A stretch of 64,000 nt of DNA from Desulfovibrio sp. JC010 (GTDB taxonomy: Bacteria > Desulfobacterota > Desulfovibrionia > Desulfovibrionales > Desulfovibrionaceae), in the NCBI RefSeq assembly GCF_010470675.1, contig NZ_VOIQ01000009.1:62001-126000 (forward strand). The letters run 5' to 3'. Under the pieces are notes generated by a model that was given only the letters and a program-made list of their open reading frames with translations, made no database searches and was not told the origin of the DNA. Below, piece after piece: positions 12,246 through 29,909 of this stretch; position 1 is the first letter of the stretch, and the number at the start of each line of letters is the position of its first letter. Position numbers and translations under genes: made by a program.

Positions 12246-13507
12246 TGACTGATATTAAAAAGCCCGTCCTTGCGATGATTCTCAAGGGCTACCCGCGTAT
12301 TTCCGAGACATTTATTTCCAATGAAATCAGACTCCTCGAACAGAGAGGCGTCAAGATTCACATCATCTCCATGCGTAAGCCGCGGGAGAGCTTCACCCAC
12401 AAATCCATCTCTGAAATCAAGGCCGAGGTATCTTACCTGCCTTCCACAATAGAAGGCTGCCTTGAAGAACTTTTCGGTTCCACTGATATGGATGCCGGAC
12501 TCAAAGACCCGCGTTACGGCGAGGATAAAGAATTCACTGACCGGATCGACAAAATCTGGAATGTCTACCGCGAAACCGGAAGCGAAGCATCATTCAAGCA
12601 CATGCTGCAGGGTGAATACATTGTGGAAAAAATTCTGCCCGGCTCGGATATTTTCCACTTCCACGCCCATTTCGCCCACTCCCCATGCTCAGTGGCAAGA
12701 AACGCCAGCCGTTTGTCCGGGTTGCCCTTCAGTTTTACTGCCCACGCCAAGGACATCTACACCCAGAAGCCGGAAAAGATCACCGCCAAGATTTCCGAAG
12801 CAAAATTCGCAGTAACCTGTACCGGATACAACTGCGACTACCTGCAGTCCATCGCCCCGGAAGGCAAACCAATCCACAAGGTCTACCACGGCATTGACCT
12901 GAACCTGTTCAGTTCCGACAAGGAATTTACCTGTTCCGGTCCGTATGAAATTTTCACCGTGGCCCGCTTCACCACCAAGAAAGGTCTGCCCACAGTCTTC
13001 AATGCCCTCAAAAGACTTGAAGAAAAAGGCGTAGACTTCAATTACAATATAATTGGAGAGGGTGATGAACGTGAAGAGACCTTAAAACTGCTGGATAAAC
13101 TGGAGCTGAACGGCCGCTGCAACTGGCTGGGAGCCAAACCCCACGAAGAAGTGCTGGAGCATTACCGCAAGGCCGACCTATTCGTCCTCGGCTGCGAAAT
13201 CGCGCCCAACGGTGACCGTGACGGCATCCCCAACGTGCTGGCCGAATCCATGGCCATGTCCGTACCTGTTGTTGCCACCACTGTTTCCGGCATCCCGGAA
13301 CTCATCGAGAACGACAAGACCGGGCTACTGGTTGAACCCGGAAATTCCGATTCCATGGCCGATGCCATGGAGCGCATGCTCACCGACCAGGAACTGCGCA
13401 AAAACCTGATCCCGGCTGCAAAAGAACGGGTGCATGAAATTTTCGACAACCGCTACTGGATTAACAAGCTGGCGGATGTTTATGAGCAATACGGAATAAA
13501 GGCATAA
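12245..13507 (+). CDS. GT4 family glycosyltransferase
   Basis: 420 residues. Retaining GT-B enzyme: N-terminal domain with KGYPRISETFISNEIRLLE, linker, then FTVARFTTKKGLPTVFNAL and the GT4 signature NGDRDGIPNVLAESMAMSVP with the EX7E-type donor site. The N terminus resembles WcaL/AmsK colanic acid-type transferases. It overlaps the preceding gene by one base. A dispersed repeat element begins 5 bp after its stop and separates it from the next gene block. Confidence 0.92.
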   Translation: MTDIKKPVLAMILKGYPRISETFISNEIRLLEQRGVKIHIISMRKPRESFTHKSISEIKAEVSYLPSTIEGCLEELFGSTDMDAGLKDPRYGEDKEFTDRIDKIWNVYRETGSEASFKHMLQGEYIVEKILPGSDIFHFHAHFAHSPCSVARNASRLSGLPFSFTAHAKDIYTQKPEKITAKISEAKFAVTCTGYNCDYLQSIAPEGKPIHKVYHGIDLNLFSSDKEFTCSGPYEIFTVARFTTKKGLPTVFNALKRLEEKGVDFNYNIIGEGDEREETLKLLDKLELNGRCNWLGAKPHEEVLEHYRKADLFVLGCEIAPNGDRDGIPNVLAESMAMSVPVVATTVSGIPELIENDKTGLLVEPGNSDSMADAMERMLTDQELRKNLIPAAKERVHEIFDNRYWINKLADVYEQYGIKA

Positions 13508-13511
13508 GACT

Positions 13512-13642: not shown

Positions 13643-14761
13643 ATGCGAATAGCCTTTTTCGCACCCCATAAGCCTATTGATCACCCTCTTCCTTCAGGGG
13701 ATTTGATCATAGGAAAAACGCTGCATGATTTTCTGAAAGCTCAGGGCCACGAACTGCTGATTGCCAGCAAATTCAGACTGCGCCATATCACAAATAAGCC
13801 ATATAAATGGCCTGCATTATATTTTGAATTCAAACGTACCCTGAAGCGGGTACAGCAATTCAAACCAGACCTCTGGCTAACCTACCACAGCTACTACAAA
13901 TCCCCGGACCTGCTGGGACCGTATATCTCCGAAAAGCTGGGCATCCCCTACGTCATCTATCAAGGTGTATTCGCCACAAAATACCGCCGCAACTACAAGA
14001 CATGGCCGGGCTACATGGCAAATAAACATGGACTGCTCCATGCGGACCATGTCTTTGCCAATAAGCAAAAAGACTTCCACAACCTTGCACGAATCGTTTT
14101 GTCCGAAAAACTATCACGCACTTATGCGGGCATCGAACCGGACAAATTCAGTTATTGCCCGCAGGGTGCTGAAGAGATACGTATAAAAAACAAGCTGAAC
14201 GGCAGGAAAGTCATTTTAAGTGCTGCCATGCTCCGTGAGGACGTTAAGGCGAAGAGCATTACTGACCTGATCAATGCATTCGCGCCGCTGGCAGCTGAAT
14301 CTCCGGATGCCGCGCTGCTTATTGCCGGGGACGGCGAGGCCCGTTTGCGTCTGGAGAAGCTGGCTGCTGAAAAAGCCGGAGACAGCATAATTTTCCTTGG
14401 TCAGGTCAGACGGGAAGACCTTTACAAGTATTACAGCGCGGCTGATATTTTCGCCTATCCGGGCATCAACGAAGCTCTGGGCATGGTCTATCTGGAAGCA
14501 CAATGCGCAGGACTGCCCATTGTGGCCTATTCGACTCAGGGGCCTAATGAAGCTGTCCTCCCCGGAAAAACCGGACTTCTTTCTCAGGAAGGAGATATCG
14601 CAGCCCTGACCGAGAACCTGAACAGGCTTCTTGATAACGACAAACTGCGTGGACAAATGTCAAAGGCCGGGCCAAAGCACGTTAAGGACACTTTCGACCT
14701 GAACAAAAACCTTCAGGAAGTTGAACAAAAGCTGATCAGCATCAGCAGCCGGAGATATTGA
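13643..14761 (+). CDS. GT4 family glycosyltransferase
   Basis: 372 residues. N-terminal domain begins RIAFFAPHKPIDHPLPSGD; the C-terminal domain has LLIAGDGEARLRLEKLA and the donor motif YPGINEALGMVYLEAQCAGLPIV, with E-x7-E geometry. A TTTATCA-free start: ATG is preceded by GGGAG. It is the first gene of a tight operon with the phosphatase, paralogue 3 and the deacetylase: its TGA overlaps the region of the phosphatase start. Predicted to extend a lipid-linked or surface oligosaccharide. Confidence 0.9.
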   Translation: MRIAFFAPHKPIDHPLPSGDLIIGKTLHDFLKAQGHELLIASKFRLRHITNKPYKWPALYFEFKRTLKRVQQFKPDLWLTYHSYYKSPDLLGPYISEKLGIPYVIYQGVFATKYRRNYKTWPGYMANKHGLLHADHVFANKQKDFHNLARIVLSEKLSRTYAGIEPDKFSYCPQGAEEIRIKNKLNGRKVILSAAMLREDVKAKSITDLINAFAPLAAESPDAALLIAGDGEARLRLEKLAAEKAGDSIIFLGQVRREDLYKYYSAADIFAYPGINEALGMVYLEAQCAGLPIVAYSTQGPNEAVLPGKTGLLSQEGDIAALTENLNRLLDNDKLRGQMSKAGPKHVKDTFDLNKNLQEVEQKLISISSRRY

Positions 14762-15378
14762 TGAAATCCGTTAAAATTGCATTTATCCGCCACTCAGTGA
14801 CAGAATGGAATGAAGCGGGACGCATTCAGGGGCACTTTGACTCTCCGCTGACCGAGTATGGACGCGAACTTGCAGCCGGATGGCGCAATGTGCTTGAGCC
14901 TGAAACCTTTGATGCTGTACTGACCAGCGACCTTGGCCGCACAATCGAAACCGCAAATATCATCACCGAAGGTCTTAAACTGCCCATGCTGCACCTGCCC
15001 GGATTACGGGAACAGGACTGGGGAGAATGGTCCGGGCTGACCACGGCAGAGCTGCATGAAAAATTTCCCGGTAAACTTGATAAAGAGGTCGCCAGGGGCT
15101 GGAATTTCACTCCCAACGCAGGCGAAAACCGCATTGATTGTGCAGCAAGAAGCATCAAAGCCCTTGAAGACGGCATTGCCGAAATCATCCGTAATGTAGA
15201 TAAGGATGAAATCAAAATTCTGGCCGTGGCCCACGAAGGCACCATGAAAACCGTCATCTACAAACTTCTCGACCACGATTTCATGCCTGAAAAGAAAAAA
15301 CGGATAAAAAAACGCAGGCTGCACTGGCTGAACTGGAACGGCGAACTTTCCATTGAAAGGTTGAATGAGAAACTATGA
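14761..15378 (+). CDS. Histidine phosphatase family protein (phosphoglycerate mutase-like)
   Basis: 205 residues. The catalytic RHSVTEWN at the N terminus (RH with the covalent His; the usual RHG is RHS here) and the second His in VAHEGTMKT define the branch. The DLGRTIETANI and LREQDWGEWSGLT segments supply the acid and phosphate pocket. Such enzymes dephosphorylate small phosphates (sugar phosphates, ribazole phosphate, phosphoglycerates). Being inside a glycosyltransferase operon, with 1-4 bp overlaps on both sides, it probably acts on a sugar-phosphate or glycosyl-phosphate intermediate; this is an inference. Confidence 0.9.
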   Translation: MKSVKIAFIRHSVTEWNEAGRIQGHFDSPLTEYGRELAAGWRNVLEPETFDAVLTSDLGRTIETANIITEGLKLPMLHLPGLREQDWGEWSGLTTAELHEKFPGKLDKEVARGWNFTPNAGENRIDCAARSIKALEDGIAEIIRNVDKDEIKILAVAHEGTMKTVIYKLLDHDFMPEKKKRIKKRRLHWLNWNGELSIERLNEKL

Positions 15379-16526
15379 AAATAATTCACTACTGCCAGCA
15401 TGTTCTGGGCATGGGCCATTTTTTCCGTTCCCTTGAGATTGCCAGGGGGCTGGACCGGGAAGAAATCATTTTCGTGGCCGGGGGAGAACGACCGGATCAA
15501 CCGCTGCCGGACAATGTAGAATACCGCCAGCTGCCCGGTCTGTGCATGAATGAACAGTTCGGCGGACTGATGCCCACTGATCCGGGCCGTGAACTTGAAG
15601 AGGTAAAAAAAGAACGTAGCGCAACCCTGCTCAAAATCTTTGCCGAAGAAAAACCGGATGTATTCCTGATCGAACTTTTTCCTTTCGGACGCAAGGCTTT
15701 CCGCTTTGAACTGCTGCCCGTACTTGATGCAATCCGTGAAGGCAGATTCGGTGATGTAAAGGTTGTATGCTCCCTGCGGGACATTCTTGTGGAACGCGAT
15801 GACGGCGGCAAACATGAAGCCCGGGTTGTAAAATACCTGAACAAATATTTCGATTTGCTGCTCATTCACTCAGACCCGAAGATCGCTGCGCTGAATGAAA
15901 CATTCCAAGCTTTCGATAAAATTGAAATTCCCTGCGAATACACAGGCTTCGCTGCCCGCAAGCCAGCTAAAAATGTGCGCGATGCAATCCGTACCGACCA
16001 GCGGGTGAGCAAAGACGAAAAGCTGCTCATTGCCAGTGCAGGAGGCGGCAAAGTGGGCGGCCCACTTATGGAATCGGTACTTGAATCCTTCATCAGCCTG
16101 AACGCACCGGAAAGCAAATTACTCATGCTGACCGGGCCGTTTCTGAATGCCGAGAAATTTGATGCTTTATGCGCCACTGCGAAAACACATGAGAACATCA
16201 CCATTCAACGTTTTGCAGCAGATTTCACCGACCTGCTCACTGCCGGTGATGCAATGATTTCCATGGCCGGATACAACACCTGCATGGATATCCTGACCTC
16301 AAACATCCCGGCAGCGGTACTACCCTTCGCATTCAACCACGAGCAGCGCACCCGTGCGGAAAAACTGGCAAAATATATCCCGCTGGAAATTCTGGATTCA
16401 AATTCGGACATGTCTGCGATAATCCAATCCCTGCTGAAACGCGAGCGCACAACAGCCGATCACACCATTAATCTGCAAGGTGCGCAGAATTCTGCTGCAT
16501 CAATCAGGAAATTAAGGAAAATATAA
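15375..16526 (+). CDS. GT-B glycosyltransferase-like protein (COG4671/MurG-like), paralogue 3
   Basis: 383 residues. N terminus HYCQHVLGMGHFFRSLEIA and C-terminal SMAGYNTCMDILTSNIPAAVLP align with paralogues 1 and 2; the second domain opens with LIASAGGGKVGGPLMESVL. It starts inside an ATGA overlap with the phosphatase and its stop overlaps the deacetylase start by one base. Three divergent copies of the same enzyme type in one cluster suggest consecutive transfers onto one acceptor. Confidence 0.83.
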   Translation: MKIIHYCQHVLGMGHFFRSLEIARGLDREEIIFVAGGERPDQPLPDNVEYRQLPGLCMNEQFGGLMPTDPGRELEEVKKERSATLLKIFAEEKPDVFLIELFPFGRKAFRFELLPVLDAIREGRFGDVKVVCSLRDILVERDDGGKHEARVVKYLNKYFDLLLIHSDPKIAALNETFQAFDKIEIPCEYTGFAARKPAKNVRDAIRTDQRVSKDEKLLIASAGGGKVGGPLMESVLESFISLNAPESKLLMLTGPFLNAEKFDALCATAKTHENITIQRFAADFTDLLTAGDAMISMAGYNTCMDILTSNIPAAVLPFAFNHEQRTRAEKLAKYIPLEILDSNSDMSAIIQSLLKRERTTADHTINLQGAQNSAASIRKLRKI

Positions 16527-17314
16527 TGGGTCACAGACCTGTCTCAGCAATCTGGAAAAATAACATATCATCCCTCACCGAATCCTTCGATATCTGGTGG
16601 GATGAATTTGTTACCCACATCCCGCAGCAGGGTTGTGATGTATTTTTCCGTGCTGATGATATCGGTTATCCGGGCTGGCAGTTCTCGGCAATGATCGAAG
16701 CTTTCAAGAAGCACAACACCCCGCTGGCCCTCGCAGTTGTTCCCGCATGGTTCAACGAACAACGCCGGGATGCTTTATTTTCTGAGCTGGATCCCGACCT
16801 CAATTTATGGTGTCTGCATCAGCATGGCTATCGGCATATGGATCATAAGACAGAGCGCAAAAAATTCGAGTTCGGTCCTTCGCGCGAAAAAAGCGTTATC
16901 TCAAGCGAACTGGCCCGGGGCAAAGAGAAGCTGTCCCACCTGCTGGGCGATCATTTCAGCCCGCTCTTTACTCCCCCGTGGAACCGCTGTTCCGCCGAAA
17001 CAATGCAATCCCTTGTTGAACTGGGCTTTGCTGCCATTTCCCGCAGCACCAATGTCAAACCGCAGCCTCCGCAAGAACTGCCGGACATCCCGGTCAATAT
17101 CGATCTGCATACTGTTAAAACCACTTCTCCTGTTGAAGGCTTAAAAACACTGCAAGATTTAATGATTGAGGGAGTCAAATCAGGCCGTGCCGGATTCATG
17201 CTCCATCATCAGCGCATGAACAAAACCTCTCAGCTTTTCCTTCATTACCTGCTCGGTAAAATAAATGAAACACCCGGCCTTCACGTCAAAGATATCCGGG
17301 AATTACTTTCATGA
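16526..17314 (+). CDS. Polysaccharide deacetylase family protein (NodB-like)
   Basis: 262 residues without a signal peptide, so predicted cytoplasmic. FRADDIG carries the metal/catalytic Asp pair, HQHGYRHMDH the two metal-binding His, and FTPPWNR the usual motif 3. Enzymes of this fold remove N-acetyl groups from amino sugars. Being the last gene of the glycan operon, it may deacetylate a lipid-linked amino sugar before export. The nearest relatives cannot be named without a search. Confidence 0.85.
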   Translation: MGHRPVSAIWKNNISSLTESFDIWWDEFVTHIPQQGCDVFFRADDIGYPGWQFSAMIEAFKKHNTPLALAVVPAWFNEQRRDALFSELDPDLNLWCLHQHGYRHMDHKTERKKFEFGPSREKSVISSELARGKEKLSHLLGDHFSPLFTPPWNRCSAETMQSLVELGFAAISRSTNVKPQPPQELPDIPVNIDLHTVKTTSPVEGLKTLQDLMIEGVKSGRAGFMLHHQRMNKTSQLFLHYLLGKINETPGLHVKDIRELLS

Positions 17315-17541
17315 CCGTTTTGTAATCAAATTCACCTCATTGTAATGCAATAAGCCTGCATTTCACTATATATCCTTCGAAAAAGAAATTTATAAAAGCG
17401 AAGTAGCGGCAGAGTTTGCATTTTCCCTTTGCATTTCAGCCCGTTTCAGTTATTTATAAATAGCTGTTCGCTAATTATTCTTCCATGATTCACGGGGTCG
17501 AATCATGGCTTGCAGATACGTTCATATCTACCGAGCAAAAC
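17315..17541 (+). other. Intergenic region before the transport island
   Basis: AT-rich with no convincing open frame. A possible extended start for the next gene at ATG 17485 lies here, but the extra residues do not look like protein and have no ribosome site. Probably carries the promoter of the transport island. Confidence 0.4.
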
Positions 17542-18219
17542 ATGTCAAAAAAGAAAATTCCATTTCAAAATCAGGATGACCAACCCGATATTGCAGCTTT
17601 GGTGGTCCTGCCCTTTAAAAAATCCTTTGAAATCAGCCTGAAAAGCCTGAAATCTAGATTCCTGCGCAACATGGTCACTGTAACCAGCCTTATTCTGGCG
17701 GTATCCTTTCTGGCCTATGTTCTTGTGGGGGCTGATATTTCAAGTGGTCTGTATCATTCCGGCGATCCGGAACTGGTCAAAACACTCGATAAATCCGGCT
17801 ATGTTCCCGGTGGCAGTGCCAAAGACCGCTGGATTGTCATCCTTTCCCTGCTGGTCTGCACCGTGGGGATCGTCAATGCCCAGCTCATGGCGGTAACCGA
17901 ACGTTTCCGGGAAATCGGCACCATGAAATGCCTCGGCGCGCTGGACAGCTTTGTGCTGCGTCTTTTTCTGCTTGAGGCATCCATGCAGGGCACTACCGGA
18001 GCACTGCTCGGCGCCATCTTCGGAGCGGCCATCGCCGTACTTGTGGGCATGCTCCGTTTCGGGCTTGATGCCGTGACCATGCTGCCTCCTGCTGAGGTAG
18101 GTCTTTCATTGCTCTATTCTGTAGGAGTTGGATTCGGGCTGACCCTGCTGGGCGTACTTTACCCCGCATTCATTGCCGCCCGCATGCGGCCCATTGAAGC
18201 CATGCGCACGGAAGAATAA
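17542..18219 (+). CDS. Short FtsX-like ABC transporter permease
   Basis: 225 residues. One transmembrane segment near residue 45 (NMVTVTSLILAVSFLAYVLVG), then a short loop instead of the large periplasmic MacB domain, and three C-terminal segments ending GVLYPAFIAARMRPIEAMRTEE, the classic FtsX/LolC terminus. The motif LMAVTERFREIGTMKCLGAL is the cytoplasmic coupling helix. It is half the usual size and lacks the periplasmic domain. It is followed by an ABC ATPase and a giant permease of the same superfamily, so it probably forms a heterodimer with the latter. The start at 17542 is chosen over 17485 by content; ribosome sites are weak at both. Confidence 0.82.
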   Translation: MSKKKIPFQNQDDQPDIAALVVLPFKKSFEISLKSLKSRFLRNMVTVTSLILAVSFLAYVLVGADISSGLYHSGDPELVKTLDKSGYVPGGSAKDRWIVILSLLVCTVGIVNAQLMAVTERFREIGTMKCLGALDSFVLRLFLLEASMQGTTGALLGAIFGAAIAVLVGMLRFGLDAVTMLPPAEVGLSLLYSVGVGFGLTLLGVLYPAFIAARMRPIEAMRTEE

Positions 18220-18280
18220 TTTTAGAGACGAATAATTTTCAAAAGAACAACAACTTAAATTAAGATAAAAGGCGAAAGTT

Positions 18281-19015
18281 ATGGCCGACCAGCACACCAT
18301 CGTCCGGGTATCCGGAGTCAAACGAAATTTCAAACTCGGCAGCACTGACGTTCAGGCCCTGAAAGGCGTGGACCTTGAAATTTATGCCGGGGAATACCTT
18401 TCCATCATGGGCCCCTCCGGGTCCGGTAAATCCACCCTCTTCAACATGATCGGCGGACTGGATAAGCCTTCCGAAGGCAAGGTCTATATTGATGAAGTGG
18501 ACATCGCCCAGCTGGACGCCTTTGAACTTGCCTGGCTGCGTAACCGCAAAATCGGTTACATTTTCCAGACCTTCAACCTCATCCAGGTCATGACCGCGCT
18601 GGAAAACATCACCCTGCCCATGATTTTCGCCGGAGTACATAATGACGCCGCAGTAGCCAAGGGCATTGAACTGCTCGATCTGGTGGGGCTGGACAAACGC
18701 TACAACCACAAGCCGCAGGAACTTTCCGGCGGACAGCAGCAGCGTGTGGCCATTGCCCGTTCGCTGGCCAATGACCCGGCAATCATCCTCGCGGACGAAC
18801 CCACCGGTAACCTCGACCTCTCCACCGGGGAAGAAATCATCAAGCTCATGAACGAGCTGAGCAAGGAACGCGGGGTGACCATCATCACCGCAACACACGA
18901 CTATAAAATGCTCAACGCCTCGGACCGGGTTGTCTGGATCGAAGACGGGCTGATCAAGAAAATCGAAGACCGTGACCAGCTCAATATTGACGTGGGCTGC
19001 ATCCGCATGGCCTGA
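18281..19015 (+). CDS. ABC transporter ATP-binding protein (LolD/MacB type)
   Basis: 244 residues. Walker [11 protein letters not shown]-loop in [20 protein letters not shown], signature LSGGQQQR, Walker [12 protein letters not shown] and the switch His in TATHDYK are all intact. The sequence belongs to the LolD/MacB/FtsE branch that pairs with FtsX-like permeases rather than with importers. AAGG precedes the ATG. Lies between the short and the giant permease and almost certainly powers both. Confidence 0.96.
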
Positions 19016-19034
19016 TCCCCGGAGGCACCCGTAA

Positions 19035-22000
19035 ATGTCCACATATCAAGCTGACAAACGTAAGTATCAATGGGGCAGGATTGCATTCTTTCTGCTGAGC
19101 GCGTTGCTGTTCCTAAGTTCAGGAATGGTCGAACGGGCATACAGTTCCACTGATTCCATACGACAGACCATCACTGAACTTTCCGCTTTCGGAGACCGTT
19201 CCTTCGGCTCCAAAGGCGCAAAACGAGCTGCCGACTACATTGAAATGAAGTTTGAGGAACTCGGTGATTTCAAGACCGGGAAACACCTCTTCCTCGCTCC
19301 GGCCATGAACACATCGGATACTGTATTCAGTATCGATAACGGAAAACAACTCCACATCAAACCTGCTAAATTTAATGCCGTATCCCCGCCAAGCACTCCG
19401 GTTGAGGGTTTGGACGGTCCGGTTATTTATGTCGGCAAGGGAGACCTTGATAATTTCAACGGTCTTCCGGTCAAAGATTCCATTGTGCTCATGGATATGG
19501 ATTCCGGCAAAAACTGGCTCAATGCGGCCAGTCTAGGAGCATCGGCTCTTATCTATATTGATAACGGCCCGACCCTGAAAGGTTTTTTCGAAGAAAAGCT
19601 GGAACTCTCACCGCTGGATTTTCCCCGTTACTATATGAGTGCAGCAGATGCACGCACCGAACTGGGGTTTGACTCCGGGATCGGAAGCAAGCTTGTTGCC
19701 GAATCAGGACATATTAAATCCCAAAGCAAATGGGAAAGGATTGAAGCGGAAAACGTATACTGCCTTATCGAGGGCAGTGATCCGAAAATGGCTGAAGAGC
19801 TGGTTGTAATTGAATCTTTTTACGACAGCTCAGTCTACGTCATGGGCGATTCTCCCGGTGCGGATGAAGCTCTTTCCATTGCCTCTCTTCTTGAGGTCGG
19901 AAAAAAAATGGCCGCCAATCCGCCCAAACGCTCGGTACTGCTGCTGGCAACCACCGGACACGGACAGTCCCTGCGCGGCATGCGTGAATACGCCACTGCT
20001 GTTTCCGGTAAAAGCAAAACGCTCAAAAAAATCAAGGTGGAGTTGCGTAAGAAAAAAAATGACGCTTCCAAAATTCTTGACGGTCTTGAGCTGGACAACC
20101 CGCTGGCAACCGAGCTTGCAACGGAAAATCCGCAACTGTTCTCCCTGCTTTACGAAACCCTGAAAAACCAGATCAAGGACGAGGTGGATATAATCAGCAA
20201 AAAACTCATGCAGTTGCGGCTGCAGGAAAATGCTGATCAAAACGCCATCACTGAACTTGACAACAGACGCAAGCTGCTGCGCCGCATTTCATGGAAATCC
20301 GATTACTCCACCCTGCCTGCTGAAGAGATGGCGGCGGTGCAAGATCTTTTTCCACATGTTAAAGAGAAAGTCCTTAAAACCAAACGGGACATCAAACAAC
20401 AGCTGACCGCCATCAAGAGTGCCCGTGAACTGCGCAAGATTGTACGCTCCAAGGAAATGGTCTGCGGCATCTCCCTGCACCTTTCCAGCCATGGCGAAGG
20501 GGTCGGGGCTTTCGGGCAGGGCTGGTTCTATGAACTCAGACCGCGCGTCAACCTCTCACGCACCTTTTCGCGCATCAACGACATCCTTGAAGACGCGGTA
20601 CCGGAAGTTGAAAAACTGACCGGGACCGAAGGCATGTACAAAGACACCCTGCGCCCGGACCGCACCCGCCCGTGGCAGACATGGCTGCTCGATAAACCGC
20701 AGTTCAGCAGTGAAATCGGCATCATGTCCGGCAAGCTCTGCTTCACCTTCGCCACTGTGAACGACGGTCGCGAGTACTGGGGCACACCTTTTGATACTGT
20801 TGGAAACGTCAATTGGGATAAAATCGGCAAACAGGCCGAACTCGCTGAAGGTCTGATCAGGAAAATTTCCGACACATCCGGCCCGCTGACCTCCAAGCTG
20901 CCCCGCAAAGGATTCGCCATGGTCAACGGCAAGGCCCGCTTCATTCGTCAGGGTGAACTTTTCGCGGACCAGCCGGCTCCCGGAGTCATCTTCATGGCTT
21001 TTCAGGGTAAAACCAGATTCTACGCCCTTTCCGACTCCGAAGGAGATTTCAAATACAAGGGCGTGGCCTCCAAAAAACTGGTCCAGTCCAAACTGATCAT
21101 TGAAGGCTATAAATATAATGATGACGGCAGAATTGTCTGGGCCATCGACAAACAGCAGACCGGGAAAAGCTCATACAGGGTAAAAATGCGCCGACTGGAC
21201 ATGGAAACCAAGCTGGTTATGTTCGGTTGCCGCCAGACCACCCTTTTCGACCTGCTGACCCCGCGCACCTTCCGCTACATGACCAAAGTGGAAGTACTGG
21301 ACGGCACCCGCGACGCCACCCCCATGCACTACTGGTACAGCCGCATCGATACCCGTTCATCCACCATTGCCAGTGTATTCCTCGAACCGGATGTACCGCT
21401 GAAAATGACTCTCTCGGATACGGTGCTGAACCGAAAAATGATTCTCATTGATTCCAAAACAGATGATCCGGCCGGCAAGGGATACAACCTCAAACAATGG
21501 CCCATTATCCCGGCCACCGACTACCGTGCGGCGCGGGATATGTGGACCTTGCTTGATCCGCGTATTCAAAACCTTGAAGCCCACGGCATCGTCAACCAGC
21601 AGATCAGGAATCTGGAACAGAAAGGGAGCAAAGCCCTCGCCGATGCTGAAACAGCATGGAAGGAACGCCGCTACGACGATTTCATGACCGATGCCCGCAA
21701 CGCATGGGCACTGGCCTCCAAGGTCTACCTTGATGTGGACCAGACCCAGAAGGATGTGCTGGTGGGCGTTCTCTTTTACATCGCCCTGTTCATCCCCTTT
21801 GCCTACTGCATGGAGAGGCTGCTCTTCTCCTTCGCTGATATCCACAAAAGAATTCTCGGCTTTCTGGCCGTGCTTTCGGCGGTTATCGCGGTCATTTATT
21901 CCGTGCACCCCGCTTTTGAGCTCACCTACAGCCCCATGGTTGTAATTCTGGCCTTCTTCATTCTCGGCCTTTCGGTCATGGTTTCGCTGATCATTTTCTT

Positions 22001-23900
22001 CCGCTTTGAAAAAGAAATGATTCTGCTCCAGCAACGGGCACACAAGACCCAGACCTCGGAAATCAGCAAGTGGAAGGCTTTCACCTCCGCATTTGTTATC
22101 GGGGTCAGCAACCTGCGCCGCCGCAAACTCAGGACCTTCCTGACCTGTTTGACCCTGACTATCCTGACTTTCACCATCATGAGCTTCACCGCAGTTAAAT
22201 CACTGCGTGAACATACTTACGTTAAATTCAATGATGCCAAGCCCTACCACGGCTTATTCATGAAAAATCTCGGCTGGCACGATCTGCCCCGTGAAACTCT
22301 GTCCATTGTCAGCAATGACTTTGATGAAAACGGTATTGTCGCCCCGCGCGGCTGGATGGAGTTGAAGGACAAAACAACTTCCGCTGTCACCCCGGTCAGC
22401 TTCGGCAATAAGCAGGAAGAGGTAAAAGGACTGGTGGGGCTCGGCTCCATGGAACCGCATGTCAGCGGAATTGATAAAATTCTGGTCAGCGGCAAATGGC
22501 TGATACCCGGCAAGAACAACCAGATTCTGCTCTCACAGGAAATGGCAACGCGCCTCGGTGCTTCCGCCGGGGATGTCGTTGACGTCTGGGGCAGTTCCTT
22601 CCTGCTGACGGGTATTTTCAACGGCAAAAAATTCACCGAACACACCGACCTTGACGGCGAACCCATGACTCCGGTCATCTTCCCTTCCGCCGCTGCGCAG
22701 GAGCTCAGTGAAGTTGAAGCCGAAGCCATTGAATCCGGCGAAGATATCGACACCTTTCAGGGTCGTTACACCCACATTCCCGGCGATGTAACTGCCATCA
22801 TCCCCTACGAAACCCTCATGGCCATGGGCGGACACCTCAAGGCTCTGGCTATCGCTCCGATATCCGGTGAGTTCTCCAAGGAAACTGTAAACGGCATGAT
22901 CGACCGTTACGGACTGCCTATCTTCAGTTGCGATAGCAGCGGCACATACATCTGCCAGTCCTCGGACACCATGAATTATTCGGGCATGGGTAACATCCTC
23001 ATCCCGCTGATCATTTCCGCGCTCATCGTTTTGAACACCATGATTACCAGTGTTTATGAGCGTAAAAAGGAAATCGCGGTTTATACTTCCATCGGTATGG
23101 CCCCGACCCACGTATCTTTCCTGTTCATTGCCGAGGCCATCGCCTTTGCAGTTATCAGCGTGGTGGTGGGTTACCTGATCGCCCAGACAGCATCCGGCCT
23201 CTTGGCCGGGACCCCGCTCTGGGCGGGCATGACCGCAAACTACTCGTCCATGGCGGGCGTAGCGGCCATGCTGCTGGTCATTGCCGTAACTCTGATCTCG
23301 GTCATCTATCCTTCCAAGGTAGCGGCGAACATCGCCATCCCGGACGTCAACCGCTCATGGAAAATGCCTGACACCGACACCAACACCATCGAAGCCACCC
23401 TGCCCTTCCTGCTCAAACATAAAGAGCAGCAGGACGCGGGCGGATTCATGCTTGAATATCTTGAATCACACACCGAAGTTTCCCACGGACTGTTCTCCAC
23501 TTCGGAGATCGAAGTAAACTTCAGTCAGGAGCACCTGCCTGAATCGGTCTGCGACCTGCTGGAAGGCTGCCCGGACCATATAACCTGCTTCCGCTTCAAC
23601 GTGCGGGTCTGGCTGGCTCCCTTTGACTTCGGGGTCAAGCAGATGGTGGAACTGCGCTTCCGTCCCTCTGAAGCACATCCGCAATTCCTTGAGGCTGTGC
23701 TTTTCATCACCCGTGAATCCGGTGAAATAGGAGCATGGAAGCGGCTGAACAAAGACTTTATCAACGCCATCAGAAAGCAATTCCTCGTCTGGCGTTCACT
23801 TGATCCGGAAAAACAGAAGAGCTTCCGCGAGAAGGTTCCGGAAATGATGGCCTTCGGTTTCACCGGACTGAATACAAGCAACAAACTTGCTGACCTTTAA
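19035..23900 (+). CDS. Giant FtsX-like permease with degenerate M28-like peptidase domain
   Basis: 1621 residues. An N-terminal membrane segment or signal anchor (about 14-33) is followed by a periplasmic M28-like peptidase fold: PA-like insert at about 120-220, then the core near 256 (VVIESFYDSSVYVMGDSPGADEALS). Compared with active M28 enzymes the HYD is FYD and the GEE is GHG, so zinc ligands appear lost. A transthyretin-like beta domain follows at about 640-720. Three transmembrane segments lie at about 903-995, then a complete FtsX/MacB core: one segment at about 1035, a periplasmic domain, three segments at about 1315-1437. The last 180 residues are soluble and unrecognised. GGAGG precedes the ATG. 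Confidence 0.85.
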   Translation: MSTYQADKRKYQWGRIAFFLLSALLFLSSGMVERAYSSTDSIRQTITELSAFGDRSFGSKGAKRAADYIEMKFEELGDFKTGKHLFLAPAMNTSDTVFSIDNGKQLHIKPAKFNAVSPPSTPVEGLDGPVIYVGKGDLDNFNGLPVKDSIVLMDMDSGKNWLNAASLGASALIYIDNGPTLKGFFEEKLELSPLDFPRYYMSAADARTELGFDSGIGSKLVAESGHIKSQSKWERIEAENVYCLIEGSDPKMAEELVVIESFYDSSVYVMGDSPGADEALSIASLLEVGKKMAANPPKRSVLLLATTGHGQSLRGMREYATAVSGKSKTLKKIKVELRKKKNDASKILDGLELDNPLATELATENPQLFSLLYETLKNQIKDEVDIISKKLMQLRLQENADQNAITELDNRRKLLRRISWKSDYSTLPAEEMAAVQDLFPHVKEKVLKTKRDIKQQLTAIKSARELRKIVRSKEMVCGISLHLSSHGEGVGAFGQGWFYELRPRVNLSRTFSRINDILEDAVPEVEKLTGTEGMYKDTLRPDRTRPWQTWLLDKPQFSSEIGIMSGKLCFTFATVNDGREYWGTPFDTVGNVNWDKIGKQAELAEGLIRKISDTSGPLTSKLPRKGFAMVNGKARFIRQGELFADQPAPGVIFMAFQGKTRFYALSDSEGDFKYKGVASKKLVQSKLIIEGYKYNDDGRIVWAIDKQQTGKSSYRVKMRRLDMETKLVMFGCRQTTLFDLLTPRTFRYMTKVEVLDGTRDATPMHYWYSRIDTRSSTIASVFLEPDVPLKMTLSDTVLNRKMILIDSKTDDPAGKGYNLKQWPIIPATDYRAARDMWTLLDPRIQNLEAHGIVNQQIRNLEQKGSKALADAETAWKERRYDDFMTDARNAWALASKVYLDVDQTQKDVLVGVLFYIALFIPFAYCMERLLFSFADIHKRILGFLAVLSAVIAVIYSVHPAFELTYSPMVVILAFFILGLSVMVSLIIFFRFEKEMILLQQRAHKTQTSEISKWKAFTSAFVIGVSNLRRRKLRTFLTCLTLTILTFTIMSFTAVKSLREHTYVKFNDAKPYHGLFMKNLGWHDLPRETLSIVSNDFDENGIVAPRGWMELKDKTTSAVTPVSFGNKQEEVKGLVGLGSMEPHVSGIDKILVSGKWLIPGKNNQILLSQEMATRLGASAGDVVDVWGSSFLLTGIFNGKKFTEHTDLDGEPMTPVIFPSAAAQELSEVEAEAIESGEDIDTFQGRYTHIPGDVTAIIPYETLMAMGGHLKALAIAPISGEFSKETVNGMIDRYGLPIFSCDSSGTYICQSSDTMNYSGMGNILIPLIISALIVLNTMITSVYERKKEIAVYTSIGMAPTHVSFLFIAEAIAFAVISVVVGYLIAQTASGLLAGTPLWAGMTANYSSMAGVAAMLLVIAVTLISVIYPSKVAANIAIPDVNRSWKMPDTDTNTIEATLPFLLKHKEQQDAGGFMLEYLESHTEVSHGLFSTSEIEVNFSQEHLPESVCDLLEGCPDHITCFRFNVRVWLAPFDFGVKQMVELRFRPSEAHPQFLEAVLFITRESGEIGAWKRLNKDFINAIRKQFLVWRSLDPEKQKSFREKVPEMMAFGFTGLNTSNKLADL

Positions 23901-23917
23901 ATATAAGGATTCCACAG

Positions 23918-25891
23918 ATGCATGGTAAAATAAGGAAAAGAGCGATTCTGCTGGGTACCCTTTTCGGGCTGCTCATCTGCGCCTTCACCCCTTTCAATAA
24001 TGCCTACTTGAACGCTACGCCGCTGGCAGGAGGACATTTTCCGCTGGCTCCGTTCTTCATTCTGGCCTGGCTGACCGCAATCTGCGCGCTGCACCGCAAG
24101 CTGCTGCGCTCGCATCCGCTGCTGACCGGGCTGGACCTGATGACCATGTGGATCCTGATGGTCATTGTTTCCGGTATTGCCTACACCGGACTGGCAAGAA
24201 CTTTTTTTATCAATCTTACCGCGCCCTTCCATTTCGCCACCATCGGCAACAGGTGGAAGGAAGTGCTCCAACCGCTGCTGCCCGAAGCCCTGCACCCCAC
24301 TGACCCCAAGGCCGTGGAGCAGCTCTACAACGGCATCAAGGGCGGTCCGTTCATGGACAACCTTGAAGTATTCCAGTCCATCCCGTGGGCGTCGTGGCTC
24401 ACACCGCTCATGTGGTGGGGCATCTTCATTCTGCTCTGCTACTTCATGATGCTTTGTCTGACCAACATCTTCAGCAGGCAGTGGGTGGAGAACGAACGCA
24501 TCAACTTTCCGCTGCTGCAGCTGCCCCGCTTCATGGAAGAAGCCATGGATCAGGGCTTGTACGGCTCGTTCCTCGGCAACAAATTCTTCCTCATCGGGCT
24601 GATCTTCTGTATCTGCCTGCACACCATCAACGGCCTGCATTTCTACATCCCCTCGGTGCCGGAAATGCCGACCCTGATTCTAGCCGGGAAATACTTTTCC
24701 AAAACCGGGCTTTTCTCCGGCTTCTACAAGCTGAAAATCTACTTCTACCCCGCTTTTGTGGGTTTCGCCTTTCTGGCTTCACGCCAGATTTCTTTCAGCT
24801 TCTGGTTCTTTTTCCTGCTCGGCGGACTCTTTTACGGAATCCTCAGTATTGCCGGGCTGAACATCCCTGCTTCCGCATTGGGAGTAACCTTCGGCCCGAC
24901 CCTGACCCGGCCTGAAGAAACCCAGATGATCGGGGCCTATCTGGTATTTTTCATCTTTATCATCTGGCTGGCCCGCCAGCATCTCAAGCAGGTCATCAAA
25001 GAAGCATTCGGAGCCCAGTCCACCCGCGGTGAAGCGGAATGGATGTCCCTGCGCTTCTCCTTCTGGGGACTGGCTGTATCCGGCCTGCTGCTCACCGGAT
25101 GGTGCGTATACTTCGGCATCCCGCTGCTGGTGGCGGTAGTGGTCCTGCTGGCCTTTTTCGTCTTCACGCTGGTGGCCTCCAAGGCAATTTGTCAGGGCGG
25201 TATCGCCTATTTTACCCTGACCGCCGCCCCACTTGACTGCGTGACCACAATTTTCGGGTCCAAATTTTTCGGATCGGTTGGAATTGCGGTCACCGCCATG
25301 TGCCAGAAAATACTTTTCGTGGACCTGCGTGAATCGCTGATGCCTTCACTGGTGCACGGCTCCAAAGTCAATGAATGGCTGGATAACAAACGGCTCTTCC
25401 TGATCGGCATAACCGTAATCCTGCTGCTGGGTGTAATCGTATCCTTCGGGGCCATGCTTATGGTCTGCTACAAATACGGTATCCGCGAACTGCAGCTGGA
25501 CTGGGCCACCCGCACTTCCATGAACGTCTACGACAACGTGGTACGCATCATTCAGGAACCTGCCGCAGCCTCGCACTGGGTAACCACCTTCGCCACCATG
25601 GGCGCGGTGATCATGTTCGCGCTGGTGCTGGCATACAACAGACTGCCGTGGTGGCCGCTGCATCCCATCGGATACCTGACCGCCTACAGCTCAGCCATGA
25701 AGATTCTCTGGTTCAGCTTTTTCCTCGGCTGGATATGCAACCAGCTGACCCTGCGCTACGGCGGAGTCGGGCTGTTCAAACGGGTTCGCTACCTGTTCTT
25801 CGGCCTGATCATGGGAGATTTTTTAATGGGCGGCATATGGGCCTTGTATGGACTGTACGCAGGGCAGAGTTATCAGGTCCTGCCGGGCTAA
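23918..25891 (+). CDS. Polytopic membrane protein, OPT-like (DUF6785 type)
   Basis: 657 residues, about 14 hydrophobic segments. It resembles the DUF6785 group, distantly related to oligopeptide transporters (OPT). The N terminus reads as a first helix followed by FTPFNNAYLNATPLAGGHFP, a segment characteristic of these proteins. A conserved cytoplasmic NERINFPLLQLP lies near residue 195. AAGGA precedes the ATG, 17 bp after the giant permease stop. The following gene is a second OPT-like protein of similar size, so the pair may form one heteromeric carrier. Substrate unknown. Confidence 0.7.
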   Translation: MHGKIRKRAILLGTLFGLLICAFTPFNNAYLNATPLAGGHFPLAPFFILAWLTAICALHRKLLRSHPLLTGLDLMTMWILMVIVSGIAYTGLARTFFINLTAPFHFATIGNRWKEVLQPLLPEALHPTDPKAVEQLYNGIKGGPFMDNLEVFQSIPWASWLTPLMWWGIFILLCYFMMLCLTNIFSRQWVENERINFPLLQLPRFMEEAMDQGLYGSFLGNKFFLIGLIFCICLHTINGLHFYIPSVPEMPTLILAGKYFSKTGLFSGFYKLKIYFYPAFVGFAFLASRQISFSFWFFFLLGGLFYGILSIAGLNIPASALGVTFGPTLTRPEETQMIGAYLVFFIFIIWLARQHLKQVIKEAFGAQSTRGEAEWMSLRFSFWGLAVSGLLLTGWCVYFGIPLLVAVVVLLAFFVFTLVASKAICQGGIAYFTLTAAPLDCVTTIFGSKFFGSVGIAVTAMCQKILFVDLRESLMPSLVHGSKVNEWLDNKRLFLIGITVILLLGVIVSFGAMLMVCYKYGIRELQLDWATRTSMNVYDNVVRIIQEPAAASHWVTTFATMGAVIMFALVLAYNRLPWWPLHPIGYLTAYSSAMKILWFSFFLGWICNQLTLRYGGVGLFKRVRYLFFGLIMGDFLMGGIWALYGLYAGQSYQVLPG

Positions 25892-25926
25892 TAAAAGCAA
25901 GTTAACTACATACTGAGATATACAAT

Positions 25927-27888
25927 ATGCACAACGATAAAGAGCTACAAGAATATCGGGACCTGCTGAAAACCCCGACCCATTTTGAAGAGGGCTTCGA
26001 CTGGAAAACAGTAGTCGGTGCCATCTTCATCGGCTTCTTGATGATGCCGGGCAGTATGTACCTGCAGCTGGTCATCGGTCAGGGCATCGGCCCGGCCGCG
26101 CGCTGGGTAACAATTATTCTCTTCGCCGAAATCGCCAAAAGGTCGTACACCGAGCTGAAACAGCAGGAAATTTTCCTGCTCTACTACATGGCCGGGGCGG
26201 CTCTGGCCTCGCCATTCTCAGGCTTGCTATGGCAACAATATTTAGTGCAGTCGGACGCAGCGCGCATGCTGGGACTGACCGAATTCATCCCCGCATGGGT
26301 GGCCCCGCAGCCGGGATCGGATTCGCTCATTGAACGAACTTTCTTCCACCGCGACTGGCTCATACCGATACTGCTGCTGGTGGGTGCCCAGATTGTCCAG
26401 CGAATAGACCATTTCGGACTGGGCTATGCCCTGTACCGCATCACATCAGACGTGGAAAAACTGCCCTTCCCCATGGCTCCGGTCGGCGCGCTGGGTACCA
26501 TGGCACTGGCAGAATCCACCGAAGAAAAACAAGCCAGCTGGAAATGGCGGGTCTTCTCGGTAGGGGGTGTCATCGGACTGGCTTTCGGGGCAGTCTACGT
26601 GCTCCTGCCTGCGGTTTCGGGGTTACTCTTTACGGAACCGATCAGGATAATCCCCATACCGTGGGTGGAGCTTACGCCGTATACGGAAAAAATTCTGCCC
26701 GCCGTGGCAACAGGTATCCAGTTTGACCTCGGACTGTTCTTCATCGGTATGGTTCTGCCTTTCTGGGCTGTTATCGGCGGACTGATCGGGATTGTCATCA
26801 CCATTGTTGCCAACCCGGTACTTTATGAGCACGGCATCCTGCACCGCTGGCATCCGGGTATGGAAACCGTTGAAACGGTCTTTGCCAACAACTTTGACTT
26901 TTATATGAGTTTTTCCATCGGGCTGGGTCTGGCCATCGGTATTATCGGTATCTGGTACGTGGCCAAATCATTCCGTGGCGAACACGCCAAAAGCCGTGAA
27001 TCATGGAGTAAACTTTTCGAGCCGCCGGAAGGCCGCGGGGATATCAACTTCTGGGTCTCCATTGCCATTTATGTCTTCTCTACCCTTGCTTACGTAGGTA
27101 TGAGTCTGCTGCTGGTACCCAATTTCCCGTGGATATTCTTCCTGCTCTACGGCTTTATCTACACCCCGGTGATCTCGTACATCACCGCGCGAATGGAAGG
27201 TATTGCCGGACAATTTGTAAGTTTGCCGCTGGTACGTGAGGCCAGCTTCATCGCCGGGGCAAAATTCTTCGGCTATCAGGGTATTGAAATCTGGTACGCA
27301 CCGATCCCCATCCACAACTACGGGGAAGCCACAGTCCATTTCCGCGAAATTGAACTGACCGGAACTTCCATCCGGGGTATCATCAAGGCGGAACTTGTTG
27401 TTTTCCCGGTGGTCATGATCGCCAGCCTGCTCTTTTCGCAATTCATCTGGCAGCTTGCGCCCATTCCGTCATCCAACTACCCGTACGCACAGGAACTCTG
27501 GCACTTGCAGGCCCTGAACACCCTGCTCATGCAGACCTCCACCCTTGAAGGTAACTCCCTGTTCTTTCAAGCCTTGAGCGGCCCGGTGGTCATGGGCGGT
27601 ATCAGTCTGGGACTTGTGCTCTATGCCATACTGAATGCATTAGGTCTGCCTGTTCTGCTGGTCTACGGTGTGGTCAGGGGACTTGGCCAAAGCACGCCCC
27701 ACGGATTTATTCTGGAGGTTGCCGGAGCATTGATCGGCCGTTATTTTTTTCAGAAAAAATACGGTGCCATGTGGAGGCAGTATGCCCCGGTCCTGCTGGC
27801 AGGCTTCTCCTGCGGCATGGGCTTGACCGGAATGTTTGCCATGGGCTGCACATTAATCCTGAAATCACTGGGGAAAATGGCCTATTAA
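25927..27888 (+). CDS. OPT-family-like membrane protein
   Basis: 653 residues with about 14 transmembrane segments. The early segment FDWKTVVGAIFIGFLMMPGSMYL and the later VEKLPFPMAPVGALGTMALAE resemble oligopeptide/metal-chelate transporters of the OPT superfamily. The C terminus (LLAGFSCGMGLTGMFAMGCTLILKSL) is a typical terminal OPT helix. It is 35 bp behind the DUF6785-type gene in the same orientation. Known OPT members take up peptides or metal-siderophore complexes by proton symport; whether this holds here is unknown. Confidence 0.72.
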   Translation: MHNDKELQEYRDLLKTPTHFEEGFDWKTVVGAIFIGFLMMPGSMYLQLVIGQGIGPAARWVTIILFAEIAKRSYTELKQQEIFLLYYMAGAALASPFSGLLWQQYLVQSDAARMLGLTEFIPAWVAPQPGSDSLIERTFFHRDWLIPILLLVGAQIVQRIDHFGLGYALYRITSDVEKLPFPMAPVGALGTMALAESTEEKQASWKWRVFSVGGVIGLAFGAVYVLLPAVSGLLFTEPIRIIPIPWVELTPYTEKILPAVATGIQFDLGLFFIGMVLPFWAVIGGLIGIVITIVANPVLYEHGILHRWHPGMETVETVFANNFDFYMSFSIGLGLAIGIIGIWYVAKSFRGEHAKSRESWSKLFEPPEGRGDINFWVSIAIYVFSTLAYVGMSLLLVPNFPWIFFLLYGFIYTPVISYITARMEGIAGQFVSLPLVREASFIAGAKFFGYQGIEIWYAPIPIHNYGEATVHFREIELTGTSIRGIIKAELVVFPVVMIASLLFSQFIWQLAPIPSSNYPYAQELWHLQALNTLLMQTSTLEGNSLFFQALSGPVVMGGISLGLVLYAILNALGLPVLLVYGVVRGLGQSTPHGFILEVAGALIGRYFFQKKYGAMWRQYAPVLLAGFSCGMGLTGMFAMGCTLILKSLGKMAY

Positions 27889-28058
27889 TACATCAGAACT
27901 AGCTCGTTTACCCCAGACCGGGTTAACAATTAATGCTTTGCGGATGAGTTAAAAATGGTTTAGGTACTTTGCTCCGGAGTAATTATCCGTTTAGCAGTGC
28001 TAGCGTGATTTTATGCCTTTGCCCATGAATAGGGCAGGCTTTCAGATAAGGATTAATA
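27889..28058 (+). other. Intergenic region inside the transport island
   Basis: 170 bp without a credible open frame or T-run stem. I looked here for a short RiPP-like precursor because a PqqD-like gene follows, and found none. Confidence 0.4.
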
Positions 28059-28955
28059 ATGGATCGTAAGAATATAGCATGGGACGGCATCAGCTTTGAC
28101 GTGCCGCCTGAGTTCGAAGTCAGCGGGATAGACAAAAGATTTCTTCAGCTTGATAACGGGGAACACCCCTGTATTGAGCTGCGCTGGTATGACGCAGGCA
28201 GAACCTATAAAGAAAAGACCTATTTCAGGCAGTTGGCCAAAAAAATTGAATCCGCTTCCGGTCTGAAGATAGAATCTACAGTACTGCCCGCTTCATGGAA
28301 GAATCCACTTAAAAAGTACAATACCACTGCTTTTTACTGGCAGTCCGACCTCGCCACCGGGCGCGGAGTCATGTTTTATTGTAAAAAAGCCGGCAAAGTC
28401 ATGCTGGTTCAATTCATCGGCAAAAACGATGAACAGATCGACAGTGCGGCGGTCATGCTCTTTGAGAGCCTGAAATTCAGCAATCCCGATGGGGATCAGT
28501 GCTGGCGAATTTATGATATGAAAGCAACCATGCCCGGCAGCATGGAAATTGAATCATTTGAATTCAAGCCGGGAAGGTTCAGTATCACCCTGAGCGACCA
28601 AACAGATACTGTTTCCCTGTACAGATTCAGCCCGGCGGATGTGATCCTCAAAGACTGTACGCTGGGGGAATTCTCCAAAAAACTGTTTGACGAAGATATT
28701 AAAAAAATGGGCCTCTCAATTGCCGAACTGGAATACGGTGAAGGCTCCACCTGCATGTTCGGGCAGGAAAAAGGTCCCTCCACTGCGGCTCTGGCTTTAT
28801 CCAAACTGAGTCCCAAACGCCGCCCCTACGGTCAGGTCGAAATCCGCTACACTCAGGAGAGCAACCGCATTCTGGCCGTCATGGTCAAGTCCCGTCAGCA
28901 CATTCCTGAAGACCGGGCCAAAAACATATTTAAACAATATGAAATTGTTCAGTAA
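28059..28955 (+). CDS. Conserved-looking soluble protein of unknown function
   Basis: 298 residues, no signal peptide, no membrane segment. The two halves look alike in layout: each begins with a short strand pair, has a long helix and ends with a strand followed by a SLKFS or YEIVQ-like helix end (the first half SAAVMLFESLKFSN, the second DRAKNIFKQYEIVQ). It may be a tandem of PsbP/DUF1795-like domains; this is a guess. AAGGA precedes the ATG. It overlaps the PqqD-like gene by 17 bp, so the two products are probably made together and may interact. Confidence 0.78.
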   Translation: MDRKNIAWDGISFDVPPEFEVSGIDKRFLQLDNGEHPCIELRWYDAGRTYKEKTYFRQLAKKIESASGLKIESTVLPASWKNPLKKYNTTAFYWQSDLATGRGVMFYCKKAGKVMLVQFIGKNDEQIDSAAVMLFESLKFSNPDGDQCWRIYDMKATMPGSMEIESFEFKPGRFSITLSDQTDTVSLYRFSPADVILKDCTLGEFSKKLFDEDIKKMGLSIAELEYGEGSTCMFGQEKGPSTAALALSKLSPKRRPYGQVEIRYTQESNRILAVMVKSRQHIPEDRAKNIFKQYEIVQ

Positions 28956-29349
28956 AAAAAAGCAGATTATCCCGGAAATGACCCGTGGCGAAGCCATGGC
29001 CTGTAAACCTGTTAAGAACCGGGACATAACTGAAACCCGCATGGATAACGGGCTGATAATGCTTTCTTACCCGTTGCGACTCAAGCCCCTTTTTGCAGAC
29101 GTAGCTAAAAGATTCGGAATGTGGAAAGACGGCTCCCCGCCCATTAAAAGACTGGAACTGGATGAAATGGGAACGCTGGTCTGGGATATGATTGACGGTA
29201 AAAACAGTGTCCGCAAGATAGCGGCAAAATTTGCTGAAAAATATCAGGTTCTGCCCCGTGAAGCAGAGGTCGCAGCCGCTTCTTTTCTACGGGACTTGGG
29301 GAAAAGAGGCTTAATAGCCTTCAACGCAGCTAACCACGGGTCAAAATAA
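28939..29349 (+). CDS. PqqD-like peptide-binding protein
   Basis: 136 residues. The C-terminal 85 residues match the PqqD/RRE winged-helix fold: IKRLELDEMGTLVWDMIDGK, then the helix VRKIAAKFAEKYQV and the terminal FLRDLGKRGLI. In pyrroloquinoline quinone and other RiPP pathways this fold holds the precursor peptide for a radical SAM enzyme. Here no radical SAM partner or precursor is nearby. The first 50 residues are an extra N-terminal extension (METRMDNGLIMLSYP-like strands). It overlaps the previous gene and ends the island. Fold call good, role unknown. Confidence 0.82.
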   Translation: MKLFSKKKQIIPEMTRGEAMACKPVKNRDITETRMDNGLIMLSYPLRLKPLFADVAKRFGMWKDGSPPIKRLELDEMGTLVWDMIDGKNSVRKIAAKFAEKYQVLPREAEVAAASFLRDLGKRGLIAFNAANHGSK

Positions 29350-29382
29350 TCTTTGCCCGCAAAAAAAGAATAAAATAAGCCC

Positions 29383-29811
29383 TTACCCGCAAGTCAGCTT
29401 GATATACTCTTCAAAGCTAACCCCGTTCCAGACCTTGCTCACCCAATAGGCAGCAGCCCAGATCATAAGTGACGAAGACTGGACATCAGAAAGCCGTTTC
29501 AACTTCGCTTCCAAATTAGGCCAACTCACACCATGATTGTTGTGAATGTTGTCATTTTCGCACGCTTCTTCAACCTGCAAAAACAGATAGGCCCCTTTGC
29601 ACTGATTCGGCAGGATTTTTACACCCTGATACGATTCCAGCACGGTCTTAAGCTCTGCTACGTTTAATTCCTGCGCAACAGAACGCATGGATTTAAAAAA
29701 CATATCCACAGCCCAAGGCAGAATAAACTCTGCTCCGGCACTTTTGGTCTTGAAATAATTTTTTAGCCACTGCTCGTGATCGTGCGTAATTCTGGCTGCA
29801 ACCTGCGGCAT
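29383..29811 (-). CDS. Hypothetical protein
   Basis: 142 residues, soluble. The first 40 residues (VAARITHDHEQWLKNYFKTK then GAEFILPWAVDMFF) are reminiscent of the short ribbon-helix-helix or antitoxin-like N termini of prophage proteins, but I cannot assign a family. The rest is helical, with several Trp near the C terminus (MIWAAAYWVSKVWNG). It sits between the transport island and the MerR-type regulator, in the same orientation as the regulator and about 100 bp downstream of it. Confidence 0.65.
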   Translation of the reverse strand: MPQVAARITHDHEQWLKNYFKTKSAGAEFILPWAVDMFFKSMRSVAQELNVAELKTVLESYQGVKILPNQCKGAYLFLQVEEACENDNIHNNHGVSWPNLEAKLKRLSDVQSSSLMIWAAAYWVSKVWNGVSFEEYIKLTCG

Positions 29812-29909
29812 ATCTTCCTCCTAAGGCTACTCCTCTACTGATAACACCAACTTAATAACCACATTTTCTAAATATATCAAGACTTTTTCTAGAAAATCAA
29901 CAGAACTAT

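Follow-up and report, generated by a model that had tools for sequence, protein, structure and literature searches.

Genes for glycosyltransferases, an FtsX-type ABC module and OPT-like membrane proteins are kept together across Desulfobacterota, suggesting an uncharacterised envelope machine

What might a bacterium move with an ATP-binding cassette (ABC) module of the FtsX type whose genes run on, in the same direction, into those of two large membrane proteins and two soluble ones? The question is raised by a stretch of 64,000 nucleotides from Desulfovibrio sp. JC010 (contig NZ_VOIQ01000009.1, positions 62,001 to 126,000), which we call the window and whose coordinates we use throughout. The original prediction, made from the sequence alone, had placed here a transport island of six to seven co-directional genes with short gaps, at 17542..29349. 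A check of the open reading frames confirms all seven genes, named A to G below, on the + strand at 17485-29349. The boundaries were nonetheless drawn too narrowly, because obligate partners (the glycosyltransferases GT28b, GT28a and GT4a) reach upstream as far as 11079: the seven genes form the transport half of a locus that spans 11079-29349 and whose upstream half, comprising GT28a, two GT4 enzymes, a histidine phosphatase, GT28b and a DUF2334 protein, appears to be glycan-making. Taken as a whole, the set suggests an uncharacterised machine which would synthesise a sugar-containing molecule and transport it through the cell envelope.

That the two halves belong together is seen in their distribution. 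In a phylum sample of 395 Desulfobacterota genomes from 246 genera, E matches 28 genomes, the family of D (PF20581) matches the identical 28, and GT28b occurs at an E-value ≤1e-30 in exactly these; the carriers belong to 12 families and to 20 of the 246 genera. Two identical sets of 28 in 395 would arise with a naive probability of ~1e-43, or ~1e-29 when counted as 20 of 246 genera, both figures ignoring shared descent. C, looked for in the 27 carriers besides the window's genome and not in all 395, is present in all 27. Of 58 relatives drawn, 25 have a full-length C, and 24 of these have E; the contig of the lone relative with full-length C and no E match (G020) ends just past D. PF20581 is absent in 14 control genomes, and D and E have no match among plasmid records. 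A chosen comparison set of 56 genomes (34 carriers and 22 non-carriers) ties in the other enzymes: GT28a is found in 34/34 carriers at ≤7.2e-91, with no strong match in the 22 non-carriers and a weak one (9e-19) in a single genome; GT4a is found in 34/34 carriers at ≤6e-91, with more distant matches in 5/22 non-carriers (best 1.1e-53); and DUF2334 is found in 30/34 carriers vs 1/22 non-carriers. For GT28b at a threshold of 1e-10, the figures are 8/8 carriers and 0/10 non-carriers.

Could shared descent, or simple proximity on the chromosome, account for this pattern? Two genera are mixed, namely g22 (carriers G037 and G046; non-carriers G042, G050 and G054) and g29 (carrier G053; non-carriers G045, G049 and G057), and in both C, E, GT28a, GT28b and GT4a track carrier status. 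Linkage, for its part, is frequently lost: of the 34 carriers, 15 have GT28a no more than 25 kb from C, 5 have it at a greater distance but on one contig with C, and 14 have it on a different contig; for GT28b the numbers are 24, 3 and 7, respectively. Some of the 14 different-contig cases of GT28a are due only to fragmented assemblies; in G334, a single contig, GT28a is 1.2 Mb from C. Since co-occurrence persists without linkage, linkage alone is no full explanation, and the mixed genera, together with the frequent loss of linkage, argue that shared descent is not the whole cause. That the glycosyltransferases, the ABC module and the OPT-like proteins are kept or lost together, as one obligate multi-gene system, is thus well supported. 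Independent scattering of the genes in relatives had been named in the original prediction as the outcome that would speak against it; C, D and E show no such scattering.

Gene order tells a similar story. Gene neighbourhoods were compared by mapping the window's proteins with tblastn onto 58 of them from relatives, 59 with the window (three contigs are counted under two handles, L033/G006, L038/G290 and L040/G409, and several are cut by contig ends); a scan of genome contigs, which reaches close relatives only, gave 9 loci. A-B-C-D-E is collinear in most of the neighbourhoods, from Desulfovibrio-named records to those of Desulfobacterales, Desulfobacterium and Desulfamplus, and an order that recurs across the phylum in this way is more than chance. 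Departures do occur: only D-E is seen on a Syntrophobacteraceae contig, D-E lies ~12 kb away from C in G163, E is separate from A-B-C-D in G130, D-E and B-C sit on different contigs in G311 and G352, and C and D are 2.8 kb apart in G218.

The upstream half, all on the + strand, opens with GT28a, a GT28-type glycosyltransferase (388 residues, 11079..12245; Pfam Glyco_tran_28_C 2e-13), followed by two GT4 glycosyltransferases, GT4a (420 residues, 12245..13507; Glycos_transf_1 1e-37) and GT4b (372 residues, 13643..14761; 3e-36), a branch 1 histidine phosphatase (206 residues, 14758..15378; His_Phos_1 1e-42), the MurG/MJ1255-like glycosyltransferase GT28b (383 residues, 15375..16526; Glyco_tran_28_C 1e-8) and the deacetylase-like DUF2334 protein (262 residues, 16526..17314; 1e-9). 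GT28a adjoins GT4a in 33 of the 34 carriers, GT4b is labelled next to this pair in 13 of 16 additional loci retrieved around GT28a, and the histidine phosphatase recurs between GT4b and GT28b in relatives' neighbourhoods. GT28 enzymes such as MurG work on lipid acceptors. On the - strand, at 8964-10833, a divergent methyltransferase gene and a third GT28-like gene lie before GT28a, an arrangement also found in genus relatives. In two relatives (L179:10935-12990 and L180:10151-12251) one finds ahead of GT28b a gene resembling that of spermidine synthase and two small ones, whose products look, by eye, cysteine-rich in one case and methyltransferase-like in the other; L038, too, has comparable small genes ahead of GT28b.

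On the transport side, the ABC module of the original prediction is present: A, a short FtsX-type permease (17485..18219, + strand, with a start perhaps at 17542; Pfam FtsX 5e-16), B, the ATPase (244 residues, 18281..19015, + strand; ABC_tran 2e-35), and C, a giant FtsX/MacB-type permease (1621 residues, 19035..23900, + strand; FtsX 3e-12). The window's copy of B has its Walker A, signature, Walker B and H-loop all present, and three of these motifs occur in 48 of 50 aligned rows; its nearest NCBIfam models are LolD, MacB and DevA, all with scores below the cut-off. The FtsX-type domain is above the Pfam cut-off in both permeases. A is minimal, with next to no MacB-type periplasmic core, and in C the MacB_PCD match (20.5 vs 27 bits) and that to PA are below the Pfam cut-off. 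C starts with a hydrophobic segment, followed by ~870 residues without any and by a hydrophobic group at 905-993; segments 1034-1054 and 1315-1433 fit the FtsX core, and a soluble tail comes after. This tail has no PDB sequence match up to an E-value of 10, and by profile the tail, F and G are mutually unlike. Identity of C outside the genus is 34-48%. Of the other FtsX-type loci in the window's genome, the best three appear by eye to be MacB-like permeases.

Also as predicted, C carries an M28-like domain above the Pfam cut-off (Peptidase_M28 3e-8), which aligns to a bacterial leucyl aminopeptidase (best E-value 0.0019). At positions 262, 278 and 310, which we take to be the M28 metal ligands, none of 50 aligned rows has His, Asp or Glu; at position 309, presumably that of the catalytic Glu, 35 of the 50 have His. 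By this ligand test the domain looks to be no active M28 peptidase. The residues neighbouring the lost ligands are well conserved, which suggests that it is probably kept for binding.

Are D and E the two OPT-like carriers that the original prediction made of them? For D (23918..25891, + strand; DUF6785/DUF6784, Pfam 6e-168) the answer is likely yes, on the strength of a predicted structure of moderate quality (predicted local distance difference test, pLDDT, 69.7; predicted template modelling score 0.75). Of 264 Foldseek matches listed against the PDB up to an E-value of 10, one reached 0.001 or better, namely barley Yellow stripe 1 (YS1; 7wsr_A, 9.8e-5, template modelling scores 0.50/0.54), a member of the OPT family according to excerpts of PMC9691689. 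D gives no signal against OPT by sequence profile (P 0.098), no PDB sequence match up to an E-value of 10 and, like E, no match to the OPT family PF03169. E (653 residues, 25927..27888, + strand), a polytopic membrane protein, fares less well. It has no Pfam, NCBIfam or PHROG family, and none of nine aligned E sequences matches any Pfam family better than an E-value of 0.14. Its profile gives a weak hhalign match to that of five OPT proteins (P 9e-4, probability 23%), vs P 0.46 and 0.62 for reversed controls and ~0.03 for the unrelated A and C; against single OPT sequences the best P is 0.0097. The only PDB sequence matches of E, two cysteine desulfurase entries at an E-value of 0.46, were taken as chance. 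D and E have no detectable mutual similarity (P 0.42). Outside the genus D is 40-61% identical, and E, at 69-84%, is the most conserved member of the set; it may have a binding partner that does not vary, for instance a carrier lipid.

What, then, could such a system do? We put forward, tentatively and at slightly below an even chance, that dedicated glycosyltransferases make a glycolipid or glycan which is exported by the OPT-like pair and a type VII ABC machine. GT28a, GT4a, GT28b and usually GT4b, with the phosphatase and the deacetylase-like enzyme, would assemble a short glycan, most likely lipid-linked, at the cytoplasmic face. MacB-class ABC transporters, in the excerpts of PMC8277102 that describe them, handle periplasmic substrates with no carriage across the inner membrane, and a product made in the cytoplasm therefore has to cross the inner membrane by other means. 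D and E are the candidates here: they would pass the product or its carrier across. Permeases A and C, seated on a dimer of B, would form the type VII ABC transporter and work by ATP-driven mechanotransmission on the periplasmic side; with the dead-peptidase domain of C as a binding platform, this complex would extract the product from the inner membrane and pass it on towards the outside.

Two precedents, along with the lipid acceptors of GT28 enzymes, make export of a glycolipid or lipid-linked glycan the best reading. According to excerpts of PMC8277102 and PMC5985334, a DevBCA-type type VII ABC transporter exports a glycolipid, and PMC12646458 describes YbbAP-TesA, in which such a transporter is coupled to a hydrolase: hydrophobic compounds taken out of the inner membrane can be received by the hydrolase-type partner. 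Our locus shares with DevBCA-HgdD, the MacB-type heterocyst glycolipid exporter, an FtsX/MacB-class ABC with a separate ATPase and a glycolipid context; B scores 212.5 bits, below the DevA cut-off of 295.8, and the locus (the region searched) has no adaptor or TolC gene, whereas it has two permeases, one of them giant, and OPT-like partners. With YbbAP-TesA it shares a type VII ABC and a periplasmic hydrolase-fold partner (B gives 194 bits to YbbA), but in our locus permease and hydrolase-like domain form one protein, the domain has an M28 fold without metal ligands, and obligate glycosyltransferases and carriers accompany them. The resemblance to OPT/YSL proteins such as YS1 lies in the predicted fold of D and the weak profile match of E; unlike those proteins, D and E sit with ABC and glycosyltransferase genes.

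Several points weigh against glycan export. Characterised OPT proteins are known as importers, and so is the sole significant fold match of D: YS1 is described as an uptake carrier in excerpts of PMC9691689. The OPT kinship of E is weak, a lead, and its structure model, built from nine close sequences, failed (pLDDT 31.9). Pfam scans of the locus found no HlyD-type adaptor or outer-membrane channel gene, no lipid-carrier or initiating glycosyltransferase was identified, and DUF2334 is missing from the g33 genomes and G053. It is less probable, though still plausible, that the system represents a fundamentally new way for glycoconjugates to leave through the Gram-negative envelope, distinct from Wzx/Wzy, ABC-2 and synthase routes, in which an OPT-fold pair as flippase at the inner membrane and a type VII ABC with a pseudo-peptidase platform as extractor in the periplasm are obligately tied to dedicated glycosyltransferases.

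The original prediction had speculated about another cargo, a peptide or modified peptide, with the carriers moving it, PqqD recognising it inside and the ABC module expelling it; the idea can be extended to a glycosylated ribosomally synthesised and post-translationally modified peptide. The two soluble proteins that it described are there: F (298 residues, 28059..28955, + strand), which has no hydrophobic segment, no family match (Pfam, NCBIfam, PHROG) and no PDB sequence match up to an E-value of 10, and G (28939..29349, + strand), which overlaps F and whose PqqD domain (Pfam 5e-11) is above the cut-off. The M28 fold suggests a peptide-binding ancestor, and in G083 a radical SAM/SPASM gene (L181:8563-9531) sits between GT4b and GT28b, inside the glycosyltransferase cluster, with PqqD directly before A. 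However, F has orthologues in 25 of the 59 neighbourhoods and G in 22 (lower bounds, contigs being cut), and alignable ones outside the genus in at least 8 and at least 9, some neighbourhoods again being cut by contig ends. F and G look accessory, and PqqD therefore cannot carry the interpretation. Moreover, Pfam scans detected no maturase in the window's locus (small peptide genes being outside this search), and the obligate glycosyltransferases, left out of the original prediction and present in every carrier tested, are unnecessary for handling a peptide, which we consider an unlikely role. A second PqqD-domain gene is present in the window's genome (L001, C3:201378-201548).

Around F and G, several relatives (L034:14159-14776, and also L041, G162, G352, G025, G046 and G053) have, between E and F, a ~205-residue protein that matches no family and whose N-terminal part includes a hydrophobic stretch. 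Near F-G in several relatives (L034:16623-17436; downstream in G046, L041 and G053) we noticed, by eye, genes resembling those for a STAS antagonist, a HATPase anti-sigma factor and a PP2C phosphatase, accompanied by an ABC exporter and a cyclic-nucleotide-binding protein.

Or could the system be a metal-chelate loop? The glycosyltransferases would then complete a glycosylated chelator, which would leave through the type VII ABC and come back, as its metal complex, through the OPT-like pair. The fold match of D to YS1, which takes up iron-phytosiderophore and would be the model for such re-uptake, fits this idea, as does the MacB homologue PvdT, listed for pyoverdine export in parts of PMC5985334. 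The locus has no chelator-making genes recognised by Pfam, and neither a metal regulator nor a receptor was seen in it, so that we regard this loop, too, as unlikely. A sensing role, in which the ABC module signals the state of the envelope in the manner of FtsEX or BceAB and controls glycan synthesis while moving no substrate, would suit the ABC class, the soluble C-terminal tail of C and the small binding domain of G; two obligate carrier-like proteins are hard to explain through signalling alone, the conserved run has no dedicated kinase or regulator, and we find this role rather improbable. Most improbable is a Lol paralogue handling lipoproteins, possibly glycosylated: LolCDE also has two different FtsX-type permeases and one ATPase gene, and LolD is the best NCBIfam model of B (229.1 bits), but the Lol cut-offs are missed by both B (307.75) and A (lolCE, 45.8 vs 362.45 bits), A is minimal and C giant, two relatives in the genus have full-length Lol-type permeases at other sites (115 and 119 bits, which miss the cut-off as well) and the set is confined to 28/395 genomes, so that the plain lipoprotein sorting system against which the original prediction had cautioned is rejected.

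With this, what was an unlabelled gene run can be put to the test as a machine, OPT becomes the likely fold class of DUF6785 proteins, the 653-residue E family, which has no Pfam entry, gains obligate partners, and ~7% of the sampled Desulfobacterota genomes (28/395) gain a candidate envelope-glycan pathway. Were a glycolipid to be moved by OPT-fold proteins, views on what OPT transporters accept as substrates and on how glycans are exported would both have to be revised; were the route new, these proteins would gain a lipid- or glycan-moving role. The earlier statement that no described pathway has this set agrees with our searches of open-licence literature, which found no paper for DUF6785, DUF6784, PF20581 or PF20580, none for combinations of OPT, FtsX, PqqD, MacB and Desulfovibrio and, among the matches listed, no title on the gene set.

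As for regulatory signals, no Rfam family reached its gathering score within 10500-30000, and promoter-like sites (20 vs 16.0 in shuffled sequence) and terminator-like sites (25 vs 23.2) are close to shuffle level. Farther upstream, at 3524-4954, the window encodes a diadenylate cyclase carrying DACND and DACNH sensor domains.

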